Shown in pieces: positions 12,911 to 23,586 of a stretch of 32,668 nucleotides of DNA. Source of the stretch: Sphaerobacteraceae bacterium. GTDB taxonomy: Bacteria > Chloroflexota > Chloroflexia > Thermomicrobiales > UBA6265. Below the pieces are notes generated by a model. It saw only the letters and a program-made list of their open reading frames with translations, had not been told where the DNA came from and made no database searches. A program made the position numbers and the translations under genes. Each line of letters opens with the position of its first letter. The first letter of the stretch is position 1. The DNA is taken from the NCBI GenBank assembly GCA_016781925.1, contig JADDPH010000063.1, positions 1-32,668 of the forward strand, written 5' to 3'.

Positions 12911-13546
12911 ATGAAGGATCCCATGGACGACCAGATCACGTTTGACGTCTACTTCGACTACGGTTGACCTTACGTCTACAGCGCGGCGGTCTGGCTGCGC
13001 GGGGTGCGTGAGCAACTCGGCGATCAGTTGCAGGTCAACTGGCGCTACTTTCCCTTGGAGCAGGTCAACTCCGCTGAGGGGCCGGAGTGGAAGCTCTGGG
13101 AGCAGCCCGATTCCCATCGTAGCCGGGGCCGGGTTGCCTTCCAAGCGGCTATTGCGGCCCGCAACCAGGGCGATGAGGCGTTCGAGCGGTTCCACTGGGG
13201 CCTCCTCAAGGCCAAGCATGAGGACGGCCAGGACCACGGTAAGGCCAGCACCTTGCGAGCCGTGGCGGAGGAAGCGGGCCTGGACCTGGAGCAGTTCGAG
13301 CGAGATCGGACTGATCGCTCAATGCTCTCCAAGATCGGCGAGGACTACGCGGAGGGGCACGACCGCCTGGGCGCGTTCGGCACACCGACGTTTATTTTCC
13401 CGAACGAGGCTGCGGCGTATCTCAAGCTGACGCCGAAATCCCCCTTGTCTGACCCGATGGCCTTCTTTGAAGAATTCATCCGCATCGGTCGGGACAGGAC
13501 GGACGTCCTGGAGATCAAGCGCCCAAACCGGCCGAGTACGGGATAG
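12911..13546 (+). CDS. Candidate selenoprotein: DsbA/FrnE-like thioredoxin-fold oxidoreductase with Sec (UGA 12965-12967) at the active-site Cys position
   Basis: ATG 12911 (GAGGA at 12903-12907 upstream) reads MKDPMDDQITFDVYFDYG-[UGA]-PYVYSAAVWLRGVREQLGDQL... in frame into ORF 13004..13546, which carries the cis-Pro loop GTPTFIF. 211 codons including Sec19. SECIS-like hairpin directly downstream of the UGA. Confidence 0.82.
12981..13000 (+). promoter_or_regulatory. Putative bacterial SECIS element of the DsbA-like gene
   Basis: GCGCGGC-GGUCUG-GCUGCGC: 7-bp stem (one G-U pair) with apical GGUCUG, starting 13 nt after UGA; GGUCU starts 20 nt after UGA. Confidence 0.75.
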
Positions 13547-14743: not shown

Positions 14744-17209
14744 TCAGTCGCTGCCCGCTGACTGCATCGCCATCAACCTTTTCTCAGATGGCAGAAGCAT
14801 CGCCTCCTCGGGTTGTCCGACCCGCAGCAGCCGCAGCGAGTTGAACGTGACGAGCAGCGCCATGCCGGTGTCTGCCAACACTGCCAGCCAGAGGTTCGTG
14901 ATGCCGACAAACGTGAGCACCAGGAATATCGCCTTGACCAGAAGCGAGGCAGCGATATTCTGGCGGATGATTGTGAGGGTTTGGCGGGCGAGACGGAGGG
15001 CCACCGGAAGCTCCGACAGCTCGTCGCCCATCAAGGTCACGTCGGCTGCCTCGACAGCGACATCCGTACCTGCCCCGCCCATCGCCACCCCGGCCGTCGC
15101 CACGGCAAGCGCCGGCGCGTCGTTGACGCCATCACCGATCATGGCGACTGGCATCGTCTGCTGGAGGTCACGCACCGCCACGACCTTATCCTCGGGCAGC
15201 AACTCGGCGCGGACGTCGGCGACCCCTACCTCCTCGCCGATTCGCTCCGCGGTGTGGCGGTTATCGCCAGTCAGCATGACCGTCTGTAGGCCCAGCGCGC
15301 CCAAGGTGGCGACGGCGCTGGGACTTTGAGCGCGAAGGGGATCTGCGACAACGATGATCCCATTGATGCGATCCGCTGTTCCCACCAGGACGGCCGTTTT
15401 TCCGCCGCGCTCCGCCTTCACCAAGGCTCGCTCGACCTCGACGGGGACCTGGGCAAAGAGGCGCCGGCTGCCGACCACGATGGTCTCGCCGTTCACCACG
15501 GCGTGCGCACCCCGCCCTGGGACGGTCTGGGCGTCGGTGGCCTCGGGGACCGAAAGTTGCTGCGCCGTTGCCGCGTCGACAATCGCCCGCGCGATGGGGT
15601 GGGTCGACCGGCACTCCACTGCAGCGGTACGAGCCAGGAGAGCCTCGGCGGAGAGTCCACCGAGTGGCATGACATCAGTGACGGCGGGCCGGCCAGCCGT
15701 CAAGGTCCCGGTCTTATCGAAGGCGACCGCGCGCACGGCGGCGAGGGCTTCGATGGCGGCGCCTCCCCTAAACAGAATCCCGCGGCGCGAAGCCGAGCCG
15801 ATCGCCGCCACCAACGCGACGGGAGTAGAGATCACCAGCGCGCATGGGCAAGCCACTACGAGTAGCACCAAGGCCTTGAAGATCCAGCCGCGGAAGTCGC
15901 CGACGATGAGTGGCACCACGGTCGCGATAAGAAGCGCCGCGGCAACGACGATCGGCGTGTAGACCGCCGCGAAGCGATCGACGAAGGCCTGGACCGGCGC
16001 CTTGGATGCCTGGGCCTCCTCCACCATGGTAATGATCCGGGCCAGCGTCGTGTCGCAGGCCGGCTTGGTCGAGCGGACTTCGAGCGCGCCGTCACCGTTG
16101 ATGCTGCCGGCGAAAACGTTGCTGGCGGGCTCCACCTCCACCGGGATCGACTCGCCGGTGATCGACGCTTGATCGACGGACGATCGGCCGGCGGTGACCT
16201 CACCGTCGACAGGTACCCGATCGCCTGGCCGCACGACGACCACTTCCCCGACTACCACCGCGGCCACCGGGACGCGGACCTCACCACCGTCCCGCTTCAC
16301 AGTCGCCTCCGCCGGAGCGAGGCGGACGAGGGCCTGGATGGCGCGACGGGTGCGCTCCACGGTGAGCGTCTGGAGCGTGAGACCGATGGCAAACAGGATC
16401 AGGACGGAAGATCCTTCGTCCCATCGGCCGATGGCCACGGCGCCGACGGCGGCGACGCTCATCAGCACGTTCATGTCGGCCCGGCGGGCCTTCAGCGCGT
16501 ACCAGGCCGACCGCACGATGGGGTGCCCGGCGACCACCATCGCGAGGAGAAAGGGCACCGCGCTGACGACGCGTTCAGCGCCGGCGCGCTCGAGATCGAA
16601 ACCAACCACCCATAGCAGCGCGGCCGCCACCGTTTCGATCAGCCGTCCCTGGCGCCACCAGCCGTGGGTTGCCGCCAAAGGGAGGTCTTGGGACCTCCCC
16701 CGCCGCGTCGCCCCATAGCCAGCCTGCTTGACCGCGTCGACGACGGCTTCCTGGCCAAGACCCGATTCTTGCGGTTCGACGGTCAGCGTGCCCGCGCCGA
16801 AGTTCACGGCCGCCGACGCCACCCCGGGCAGTCGCTGGACGCCGGCCTCGATCGTCTTCGCGCACTCGCCGCAGTCCATCCCGGAAATATCGAAGACCCA
16901 CGGCCCATCGGTCTCCATCGGTGGTGGAGCTTGGTGAACTCCATACCCGAGCGCCTTCACCCGCCCGACGAGGTCCTCCTGCTCAACCAAGGTCGGATCG
17001 TAGGTCACGTCTGCCGTGCCGCCGGCGAAGTTGACTTTGGCGGTCTCCACGCCGTGCAGGGAGGCCAGCGACGCCTCGATCGTCTTCGCGCAGCTCCCGC
17101 AGTCCATGTCCGTCACGTCGAGGCGGCAACTCGCGCTGATCAACGACGCGTCGGTGCGAACGTGCTGCCCAGACGGCACGGTACAGTCCGCCCCGCCGTC
17201 TCGTCTCAC
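14744..17209 (-). CDS. Heavy-metal translocating P-type ATPase (Zn/Cd/Pb, CadA/ZntA type) with two N-terminal HMA domains
   Basis: MDCGSCAKTIEAS and MDCGECAKTIEAG metal-binding motifs, CPC (VACPCALVIS), DKTGTL, GDGVNDAPAL. Confidence 0.93.
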   Translation of the reverse strand: MRRDGGADCTVPSGQHVRTDASLISASCRLDVTDMDCGSCAKTIEASLASLHGVETAKVNFAGGTADVTYDPTLVEQEDLVGRVKALGYGVHQAPPPMETDGPWVFDISGMDCGECAKTIEAGVQRLPGVASAAVNFGAGTLTVEPQESGLGQEAVVDAVKQAGYGATRRGRSQDLPLAATHGWWRQGRLIETVAAALLWVVGFDLERAGAERVVSAVPFLLAMVVAGHPIVRSAWYALKARRADMNVLMSVAAVGAVAIGRWDEGSSVLILFAIGLTLQTLTVERTRRAIQALVRLAPAEATVKRDGGEVRVPVAAVVVGEVVVVRPGDRVPVDGEVTAGRSSVDQASITGESIPVEVEPASNVFAGSINGDGALEVRSTKPACDTTLARIITMVEEAQASKAPVQAFVDRFAAVYTPIVVAAALLIATVVPLIVGDFRGWIFKALVLLVVACPCALVISTPVALVAAIGSASRRGILFRGGAAIEALAAVRAVAFDKTGTLTAGRPAVTDVMPLGGLSAEALLARTAAVECRSTHPIARAIVDAATAQQLSVPEATDAQTVPGRGAHAVVNGETIVVGSRRLFAQVPVEVERALVKAERGGKTAVLVGTADRINGIIVVADPLRAQSPSAVATLGALGLQTVMLTGDNRHTAERIGEEVGVADVRAELLPEDKVVAVRDLQQTMPVAMIGDGVNDAPALAVATAGVAMGGAGTDVAVEAADVTLMGDELSELPVALRLARQTLTIIRQNIAASLLVKAIFLVLTFVGITNLWLAVLADTGMALLVTFNSLRLLRVGQPEEAMLLPSEKRLMAMQSAGSD

Positions 17210-17613
17210 GATCCGTCCTCCGAGATTTGGTGGCGGATGTGGGCGAGGGCTTGACCGTAGAGGGCCGTGACGTGAGCGTCGTCTAATGCGTAGTAGGCGA
17301 GGCGGCCGTCACGGCGGGCGCGGACGAGGCCGATCGACCGCATCAGGCGCAGGTGGTGGGAAACCGCGGATTCGCTGTGTCCAACCGTCGCGGCCAAGTC
17401 GCAGACGCACAGTTCCCGCTCGGCCAGCGCGGCCATAATGCGAAGGCGCGTGGGATCACCGAGTGCGGCGAATAAATCTCCCAGGGCCGCGAGGGCCGGC
17501 ACCGCCGGGAGCGTTGCCCGGGCGGCCCGCACCGCATCGACGTGAACCAGCTCCTCCTCGCATGAGAGGTCGGCCAGAGCAGCCAGTTGATCCTGTTTAC
17601 GTGGGCGGGCCAC
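17206..17613 (-). CDS. ArsR/SmtB family metal-sensing transcriptional regulator
   Basis: ELCVCDLAATVGHSESAVSHHLRLMRSIGLVRARRDGRLAYYALDDAHV; CadC/SmtB-like ELCVCDL; stop overlaps the start of the P-ATPase gene. Confidence 0.92.
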   Translation of the reverse strand: MARPRKQDQLAALADLSCEEELVHVDAVRAARATLPAVPALAALGDLFAALGDPTRLRIMAALAERELCVCDLAATVGHSESAVSHHLRLMRSIGLVRARRDGRLAYYALDDAHVTALYGQALAHIRHQISEDGS

Positions 17614-20433: not shown

Positions 20434-23400
20434 ATGGCCCTGATGCGACCCCTTCGCGACATCCTCCGGCGCCACGTCGGCGCCTTGCCGAACCCCATCA
20501 GCAGGAGTACCGCGGAAGCGAAGCCACGAATTCGTGATGCCACTATGACTGTGAGTGTCTGCCCCTATTGCGCGGTTGGCTGCTCCCAGCTGGTCTACGC
20601 CAAGGAGGACCGGATTGTTGACATTGAGGGTAACCCCGATAGCCCCATCAACGCCGGCACGCTCTGTCCCAAGGGCGCGGCGACCTCGGGCTTGGTCGAC
20701 AATCCGCTCCGCTTGACGACGGTCAAGTACCGGCCGCCCTATGGCGAGCAGTGGGAGGAGCGCCCGCTAGGCTGGGCCATGGAGCGCATCGCGGGGCGGG
20801 TGAAGGCGACGAGGGACGCGACCTTTGAGGAGCGTGACGAGAAGGGCAACCTCGTCAATCGGACACTGGCGGTCGGGCACCTGGGCGGCGCGACCCTGGA
20901 CAACGAAGAGAATTACCTCATCAAGAAGCTCTTCACCGCCGGCCTCGGTATCGCGGCGGTGGAGAATCAGGCCCGCATATGACACTCCTCCACGGTGCCC
21001 GGTCTGGGCGCCCGACTGGGACGCGGCGGCGCGACTACCTTCCTTCAGGACCTCGCGAACAGCGACTGCATCGTGATCATGGGCGCCAATATGGCGGAGA
21101 ACCACCCGGTCGGGTTCCGGTTCGTGGTTCAGGCCCGGGAGCGCGGGGCGACGATCATTCACGTTGACCCCCGATTCACCCGCACGTCCGCCCTCTCGGA
21201 TCTTCATGTGCCCCTGCGCGCGGGGTCGGACATCGCTTTTCTCGGAGCGCTCATTAACCACGTCCTGACGAACGGGCTCTGGTTCGACGAGTACGTCCGC
21301 CACTACACCAACGCATCGACCATCGTTGGCGAGGACTTCCGCGACACCGAGGACTTGGCGGGCCTCTTCTCCGGGTATGTCCCCGCCGAGCGGCGCTATG
21401 AGTTCGATTCCTGGCGCTACGCCGGTCAGGCGACCGACCCGGCGCCGTCCGAGGATGCCAACCAGGACTCTCAGGCGTACGACCAGCGAGTTGGCCGCAC
21501 CGATGGGGCGCTGGAGGTCGATCCGACCTTGCAGCACCCAAACTGCGTCTTCCAGATCGTGAAGCGCCACTTCTCGCGGTACACCCCGGAGTTGGTCGAG
21601 GAGACCTGCGGCGTGCCGCGAAAGCTCTTCCTTCAGGTGGCGGACGCCATCACCCGCAACTCTGGCCCGGAACGGACGACGGCTTTTGCCTACGCCGTGG
21701 CGTGGACTCAGCACACCACCGGGACCCAGATGATCTCCTGCTGCGCCTTGCTCCAACTCCTGCTTGGTAATATTGGACGGCCGGGCGGTGGGATCATGGC
21801 CCTTCGCGGTCACGCCACGATCCAGGGCAGTACCGACATTCCAACTCTCTACAACTTGCTGCCCGGTTACCTGCCGATGCCCAACACGGCCCAACCGTCT
21901 GCCACCCTGGCGGACTATCTCGGCCAGGTGACGGCGCCGACCGGCTGGTGGCACCATGCCCCCGCCTATATGGTGAGCCTCCTCAAGGCCTACTACGGCG
22001 ACGTGGCCCAACCGGAGAACGACTTCGCCTACGACCTGCTGCCCAAGATCGGCGGGGACTACTCCTTCCAGCCGATGCTCCTGATGATGCAGGAAGGCGC
22101 CATGCAGGGACTCTTTTGCATGGGGCAGAACCCGGCGGTCGGCGGTCAAAACGCCCACCTCGCCCGCCGGGCGCTCGCCAACCTCGACTGGCTGGTGGTC
22201 CGTGACTTGTTCGAGACGGAGACCGCAGCGTTCTGGCACGACGCTCCCGAAGTCCGAAGCGGAGAGGTGCGGGCCGCGGACATCAAGACGGAGATCTTTC
22301 TGCTTCCGGCAGCGGTCACACCCGAGAAGGATGGCTCCTACACCAACACCCAGCGGTTGGTGCAGTGGCATGACAAGGCCGTTGACCCGCCCGGCACCGC
22401 CCGCTCGGAGGCCTGGTTCATTCACGATCTGGCTTGCCGCCTCAAGGAGCTCTATGAGGGGGAGGATACCCCTGCAGCCCGCCAACTTCAGGCCCTCGCC
22501 TGGGACTACCCGGATACGGGCGGCGAGCCACATCTTGATGAGGTGGTCAGGGAAATCAACGGTTACACGGTCGGCGACGGCCGGTTAGTGCTCGATTACA
22601 CCGCCTTGAAGGATGACGGCTCCACTGCCTGCGGCTGCTGGATCTACTCTGGCATCATGCCCGAGGAGGGACGAAACCTGGCTAGGAACCGCCGCGGTGA
22701 CGAGCGCGCGTCGCTTGGCTGGGGGTTCGCCTGGCCTGCTAACCGACGCATGCTCTACAACCGGGCCTCTGCCCGACCCGACGGCACCCCTTGGTCGGAG
22801 CGGAAAGCGTGGATCTGGTGGGATGCGGAGCAGGGCCGCTGGACCGGGCACGACACGGCCGACTTTCCCGCCACGAAGCCGCCGAGCTTTCGTCCGCTTC
22901 CGGACGCCAAGGGGATGGAGGCTCACGGTGGTGACGCGCCATTCATTATGATGGCCGATGGAAAGGGACAGTTGTATGCCCCGACCGGTCTTCGGGACGG
23001 TCCCTTGCCCACTCATTACGAGCCCTGGGAGACGCCGGTCGGCAACCTCCTCTATCCTGACCAGCCACGGAGTCCATCAGCCAAGCTGCATGACCGGCCG
23101 GACAATCGCTACCATGCCATCGGCGACCCGCGTTTCCCGCATGTGATCACCACCTATCGGCTCACAGAGCATCACACGGCGGGCGCGATGAGCAGGTTCG
23201 TGCCGTGGCTGGCGGAGCTGCAGCCGGAAGGGTTCGTGGAGATCGATCCGGTGCTTGCGGGCTCGATGAGCGTGGATAACCGCGACTGGGTGACGGTCAG
23301 CACGTTGCGAGGAGCGATCGAGGCACAAGCGTTGGTCACGGATCGCATCCCGCCGCTGACGGTTCACGGTCAGCGCCTCCACCAGATCGGGGTCCCCTGG

Positions 23401-23586
23401 CACTACGGGTACACCGGGATCGCCGTGGGCGGCATCGCCAACGACTTGAGCGCCCTCATCGAAGACCCGAACTCGTTGATCCATGAGGCAAAGGCGTTTA
23501 CCTGCGCGGTCCGGAAGGGCCGCCTAGGTGACGTGGGCAGCGATGAGACGGTCACAGACCGCGCCTCTGCACGGGGAGCGGGATGA
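20434..23586 (+). CDS. fdhA: Formate dehydrogenase catalytic (alpha) subunit, selenocysteine-containing (Sec at UGA 20980-20982)
   Basis: ORF 20434..20982 reads through the in-frame UGA into 20983..23586 (NQARI-U-HSSTVPGLGARLGRGGATTFLQDLANSDCIVIMGANMAENHPVGFRFV). CPYCAVGC 4Fe-4S motif, molybdopterin oxidoreductase fold. Start may be 20443. Confidence 0.95.
20994..21012 (+). promoter_or_regulatory. Bacterial SECIS element in fdhA
   Basis: GGUGCCC-GGUCU-GGGCGCC: 7-bp stem, GGUCU loop, stem starting 11 nt after UGA and GGUCU 18 nt after UGA. The same spacing and loop are recalled for E. coli fdhF. Confidence 0.88.

Follow-up and report, generated by a model that had tools for sequence, protein, structure and literature searches.

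An in-frame UGA followed by a predicted bacterial SECIS hairpin in a DsbA-like gene of an uncultured Thermomicrobiales bacterium

The DNA analysed here, referred to below as the window, is a stretch of 32,668 nucleotides within contig C51 of a draft genome (2.23 Mb, 82% complete) most closely related, among named genomes, to Thermomicrobiales MAGs (Chloroflexota). The window contains a DsbA-like gene and, 8 kb downstream, a formate dehydrogenase gene, each with an in-frame UGA and a hairpin that presents the same GGUCU loop. The features are as follows.

12911..13546, + strand: DsbA-like gene predicted to encode a selenoprotein of 211 aa, with UGA19 as Sec (from translation, the Pfam DSBA match, homologs spanning the UGA, and AlphaFold2)
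12965..12967, + strand: in-frame UGA, predicted Sec codon (aligned with the catalytic Cys codon of homologs)
12981..13000, + strand: predicted bacterial SECIS hairpin (stem 12981-12987/12994-13000, loop GGUCUG 12988-12993)
20434..23586, + strand: formate dehydrogenase alpha subunit, the second predicted selenoprotein gene (from translation and NCBIfam; 20434 is not an assigned start codon)
20980..20982, + strand: in-frame UGA of formate dehydrogenase, UGA183, predicted Sec codon in RI-U-HSSTV (from translation)
20994..21012, + strand: predicted SECIS hairpin of formate dehydrogenase, GGUGCCC-GGUCU-GGGCGCC (loop 21001-21005, 18 nt after the UGA)

The DsbA-like gene begins at ATG 12911 or, alternatively, at the in-frame ATG 12923, and with the UGA read as Sec its 211-aa translation opens with MKDPMDDQITFDVYFDYG-U-PYVYSAAVWLRG. 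The protein carries the motif DYGUPYV at the Sec site and a cis-Pro motif, FGTPT, that is kept across its homologs. It matches PF01323 (DSBA) with 61 bits against a cut-off of 25.6 (E=1.7e-16), and the domain match, the FGTPT motif and the structural model put the active site where helix 1 begins and supply the cis-Pro loop, as is expected of members of this Pfam family. The AlphaFold2 model, in which Sec was modelled as Cys, has a mean pLDDT of 92.6 and a pTM of 0.89. The translation contains no Cys residue, and inspection by eye revealed no obvious signal peptide and no hydrophobic N-terminal segment; in these respects, and in its UPYV motif, it is unlike classical periplasmic DsbA, which combines CxxC or UxxC with a signal peptide. 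The nearest PDB entry both in sequence (1.6e-32) and in fold (TM 0.83, 30% identity) is DR2335 of Deinococcus radiodurans (PDB 7dk9, and 7dka for C24S), which has a DsbA-like fold and a Cys-Pro-Tyr-Ala site with no second motif Cys, but whose catalytic residue is Cys and not Sec. Taken together, the Sec-Pro-aromatic-Val motif, the absence of Cys, the cis-Pro loop, the lack of a signal peptide and the nature of its relatives suggest that the protein is probably a one-Sec oxidoreductase of the DsbA/DR2335 type that depends on an external thiol for resolution.

The gene is flanked by coaE upstream and by an endonuclease III/MutY-type gene downstream, and given that these neighbours are housekeeping genes the context gives no pathway for the protein. 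On the minus strand of the window, positions 14744-17613 hold a heavy-metal P-type ATPase adjoining an ArsR-family regulator. The same genome also encodes a Cys-type paralog of the DsbA-like selenoprotein (L070, G000:C5:3379-3888; 45% identity). No viral relatives were found.

The UGA at 12965-12967 is followed by a 13-nt spacer (CCUUACGUCUACA, 12968-12980) and then by a hairpin in which GCGCGGC (12981-12987) pairs with GCUGCGC (12994-13000) to form a stem of 7 bp with one G-U pair (12985-12996), such that GGUCU begins 20 nt 3' of the UGA. A first-pass annotation of this DNA had proposed this hairpin as a SECIS, and the sequence, coordinates, stem and loop it gave all proved exact, as did the 20-nt distance when re-measured. 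RNAfold places the hairpin in the MFE and the centroid structure alike. The total folding energy of the segment showed no gain over dinucleotide shuffles (z -0.02), a value that carries no information; because the DNA is so GC-rich, folding stability is uninformative here, and whole-segment folding energy was dropped as evidence for a SECIS.

Published generic constraints on bacterial SECIS elements (bSECIS) call for a loop of 3-9 nt, a stem of 4-16 bp, a G at loop position 1 or 2, a distance of 16-37 nt from the UGA and an MFE <= -7.5 kcal/mol (PMC13188914), and the hairpin falls within these limits (20 nt, 6-nt loop, 7 bp, -13.1 kcal/mol). The same generic model is satisfied by 81 of the 870 TGAs that the window has on its two strands (9.3%), and therefore a hairpin after a UGA is, as such, a weak argument. 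When the apical loop must be GGUCU, the stem no shorter than 5 bp and the distance from the UGA 16-37 nt, just two of the 870 remain, UGA 12965 of the DsbA-like gene and UGA 20980 of formate dehydrogenase.

At gathering scores Rfam gave no match anywhere in the window. When the search was relaxed, the sole meaningful match was SECIS_3 at formate dehydrogenase (20977-21035; sub-threshold at 36 bits against a gathering score of 63), and at the DsbA-like hairpin there were only chance matches, with no family that fits. The DsbA-like hairpin nonetheless resembles the bSECIS of E. coli fdhF and Rfam SECIS_3 in being a short hairpin directly after the UGA, with an early loop G and GGUCU within 16-37 nt. 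The E. coli fdhF SECIS has a bulged U in its stem and places GGUCU 18 nt from the UGA, whereas the stem of the DsbA-like hairpin is a perfect 7 bp without a bulged U and the distance to GGUCU is 20 nt. As for formate dehydrogenase itself, the translation matches NF041513 (1509 bits) and TIGR01553 (991 bits), both above the NCBIfam cut-offs; its terminal stop is a TGA too, and translation table 11 breaks the gene into ORFs 20434-20982 and 20995-23586.

Homologs of the DsbA-like gene were drawn from 101 related genomes and a genome-contig scan, with duplicates removed. In the main family the catalytic codon, which keeps one register throughout, is TGA in 30 genes (the window gene included) and TGC or TGT in 67, which thus have Cys at the codon of Sec19. 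The UGA homologs span Thermomicrobiales, Dehalococcoidia, SAR202 and others, and never carry UAA or UAG at this position. The inner five pairs of the stem are complete in 27 of the 30 UGA genes (the exceptions in the window register being L033, L123 and L155) and in 4 of the 67 Cys genes, a difference with a Fisher p of 1.5e-16 when relatedness is ignored; 86% of stem cells are paired in the window-hairpin register in UGA genes versus 47% in Cys genes, and the published bSECIS constraints hold for 25/30 versus 4/67. The six-position loop begins with GGU, AGU, AGG, CGU or GGA in every one of the 30 UGA homologs, each of these with a G among its first two letters. Equal retention of the hairpin by Cys homologs, which the first-pass annotation had named as a result that would undo its proposal, was thus not what we observed.

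These data bear on whether the UGA is simply a true nonsense mutation that cuts short a DsbA gene of the Cys type, with the hairpin there by chance. The open frame is indeed interrupted, and generic hairpins follow 9% of the TGAs in the window, but a nonsense mutation does not account for UGA, to the exclusion of the other stop codons, at the catalytic codon of 30 homologs across several lineages, nor for a hairpin that is conserved with UGA only. Moreover, the 173 codons analysed downstream of the hairpin are under strong purifying selection (dN/dS 0.047 versus the same-genus copy), and the genome encodes Sec machinery, described below. Conservation already strongly disfavours a pseudogene, and we consider one very improbable.

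It was also conceivable that the hairpin arises merely because AAVWL(R/H/Q) is encoded by GC-rich codons, without any role as RNA, the UGA perhaps being read by other means. We compared each gene with a null in which it was synonymously recoded with its own codon usage. For UGA genes this null alone already yields 4.4 of the 7 pairs, and the 7 pairs of the window gene by itself reach just p = 0.08, and therefore the case for a SECIS rests on the family. Summed over the UGA genes there are 180 pairs where 131.8 +/- 5.0 are expected (z 9.5), as against 220 where 216.5 +/- 7.4 are expected in the Cys genes (z 0.5), some of them coding for identical residues. At the Ala codon, the third base of which pairs with the Leu codon, 24/30 UGA genes have GCA, whereas that third base is A in 3/67 Cys genes. 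Synonymous change between close relatives is suppressed over the hairpin in UGA pairs (0.27, versus 0.54 in downstream codons; p 0.0009) and not in Cys pairs (0.39 versus 0.37). At the level of sequence comparison these patterns show the hairpin to be under selection in UGA genes only, and a hairpin that merely reflects coding is accordingly hard to credit.

The stem also shows compensatory variation. Among 27 distinct UGA sequences the covariation score was 0.169, compared with 0.122 +/- 0.012 in shuffles that leave relatedness in (0/500 as high) and at most 0.082 when the partners were slid. Double changes, 13 cells in all, occur at the outer two positions of the stem alone (C-G/G-C/G-U and U-A/C-G); further in, the five remaining pairs exhibit one-sided variation or none among the UGA sequences, and the number of pairs with a double change was not above that in shuffles (474/500). 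A stem that failed to covary among UGA homologs would, according to the first-pass annotation, have counted against a SECIS; covariation was found, in the outer two pairs only. Phylogenetically independent contrasts were set aside as a test of the hairpin, given that the 3 Sec/Cys pairs usable on well-supported branches leave it underpowered; about 1.7 of these favoured a link between hairpin and UGA, and on average 0 spoke against it.

The host genome encodes SelA (510 bits), SelB (319 bits) and SelD (353 bits), the last with an in-frame TGA of its own at the UxxK site (...SAG-U-ASK...), and from these three genes we infer that the host decodes Sec. The SelD gene (L020, G000:C118:11471-12403) has a GGUGC-loop hairpin ~32 nt downstream of its in-frame TGA. 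A tRNA-Sec was not found in the 82%-complete host assembly, in which the best RF01852 matches were tRNA-Ser and other ordinary tRNAs and a query with the tRNA-Sec locus of the same genus returned scattered short matches only; a tRNA-Sec with a UCA anticodon is present in the same-genus genome G001. SelA scored above cut-off in 20/20 genomes with UGA homologs, an enrichment that gives only mild support because 83 of the 101 related genomes have SelA anyway. The four genomes with Cys homologs and no SelA match at all (G004, G022, G026 and G095) hold Cys forms only.

Least probable of all is that translation stops at the UGA and restarts at GTG 13004, for although the resulting 180-aa ORF exists and is the likely call of automatic annotation, it would be a DsbA fragment without the catalytic residue, and the codons before the UGA correspond to the domain's first beta strand and are conserved as protein, with zero amino-acid changes in the ten codons before the UGA among the three closest UGA genes (L024, L025 and L026). 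Given the dN/dS downstream, the conservation before the UGA, the recurrence of UGA to the exclusion of other stops and the machinery genes in the host, both reinitiation and a pseudogene were rejected.

Conservation of the hairpin with UGA only, compensatory variation in its stem, the presence of SelA, SelB and SelD, and a second UGA/SECIS gene in the window all support the SECIS first proposed for this locus. The hairpin at 12981-13000 is therefore very probably a SelB-type bacterial SECIS that recodes UGA 12965 as Sec, leading to a predicted full-length, cytosolic 211-aa protein of DsbA fold in which Sec19 is the sole redox residue. Judging from gene content, SelA would use selenophosphate from SelD to make Sec-tRNA-Sec; by what is known of the SelB family, SelB-GTP together with Sec-tRNA-Sec would bind the GGUCU loop and deliver the latter to the UGA in the A site. 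The full-length product would then act as a DsbA/DR2335-like thiol oxidoreductase with one Sec, passing through a mixed selenenyl-sulphide whose resolution falls to an external thiol. An ordinary gene caller is likely to truncate the DsbA-like gene at the UGA, with loss of the active site.

Neither bSECIS elements nor selenoproteins of the DsbA-like kind are new; both are long established, and a UxxV form is among those catalogued. The GOS survey described 'DsbA 3', a pfam01323 selenoprotein with the motif UxxV represented by 5 marine sequences (PMC2398784); compared by description only, it shares with the present family the DSBA domain, Sec at the catalytic position and V three residues on, but the present family is largely from Chloroflexota and not only marine. 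DsbA-like proteins are among the common selenoprotein families in 5200 genomes (PMC5029168). A 2026 inventory lists a 'DsbA-like protein form 2' in PF01323 with the motif DxxUP (MDP6049977.1; PMC13188914), to which the D-Y-G-U-P of the window protein conforms when compared by motif and not by alignment; unlike the window protein, that entry is named a crotonase/enoyl-CoA hydratase family protein in the table. DsbA is not mentioned in deep-Sep (PMC12013277), and in the literature searched we found nothing that names this family in Thermomicrobiales. The present analysis adds a well-supported predicted selenoprotein gene with its SECIS in an uncultured, little-studied Thermomicrobiales lineage, and a family centred on Chloroflexota for which no fewer than 10 Sec/Cys switches are inferred.

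On the tree of 97 proteins the Sec/Cys changes number at least 10 (bootstrap range 9-10), 3 of which are forced by well-supported branches; the tree is unrooted, and gain of Sec is thus not separable in it from loss. A Cys gene, L052, groups with a Sec clade, and a UGA gene, L033 (G010:C300:2877-3479), lies inside a Cys group and has a hairpin that is shifted and without GGUCU, which may be an independently evolved SECIS. One could envisage from the best tree a Chloroflexota-centred family of one-Sec DsbA-like reductases that has undergone at least 10 exchanges of Sec and Cys, a SECIS being built or lost each time and that of L033 perhaps arising independently; we offer this tentatively, as a history with somewhat less than an even chance of being correct. 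The family's Sec and Cys versions, close relatives of which some have a SECIS and others do not, constitute a natural series for studying the origin and decay of SECIS elements within coding sequence.

Several further homologs merit mention. The UGA homolog L155 (JAUXIQ010000044.1) lies on a contig labelled Nitrospinota, which points to transfer or mis-binning. Five TGA genes outside the count of 30 and 67 belong to a more distant DsbA-like UPWx subfamily (L060-L064, from genomes G081, G068, G071, G079 and G077), with the UGA in EYxUPW(A/S/C); their hairpin is of another, CGUGCG type, and for the most part it does not pass the simple bSECIS test. The Cys homolog L150 (JASLQE010000247.1) still has GGUCUG at the loop position next to a broken stem, a possible SECIS relic.
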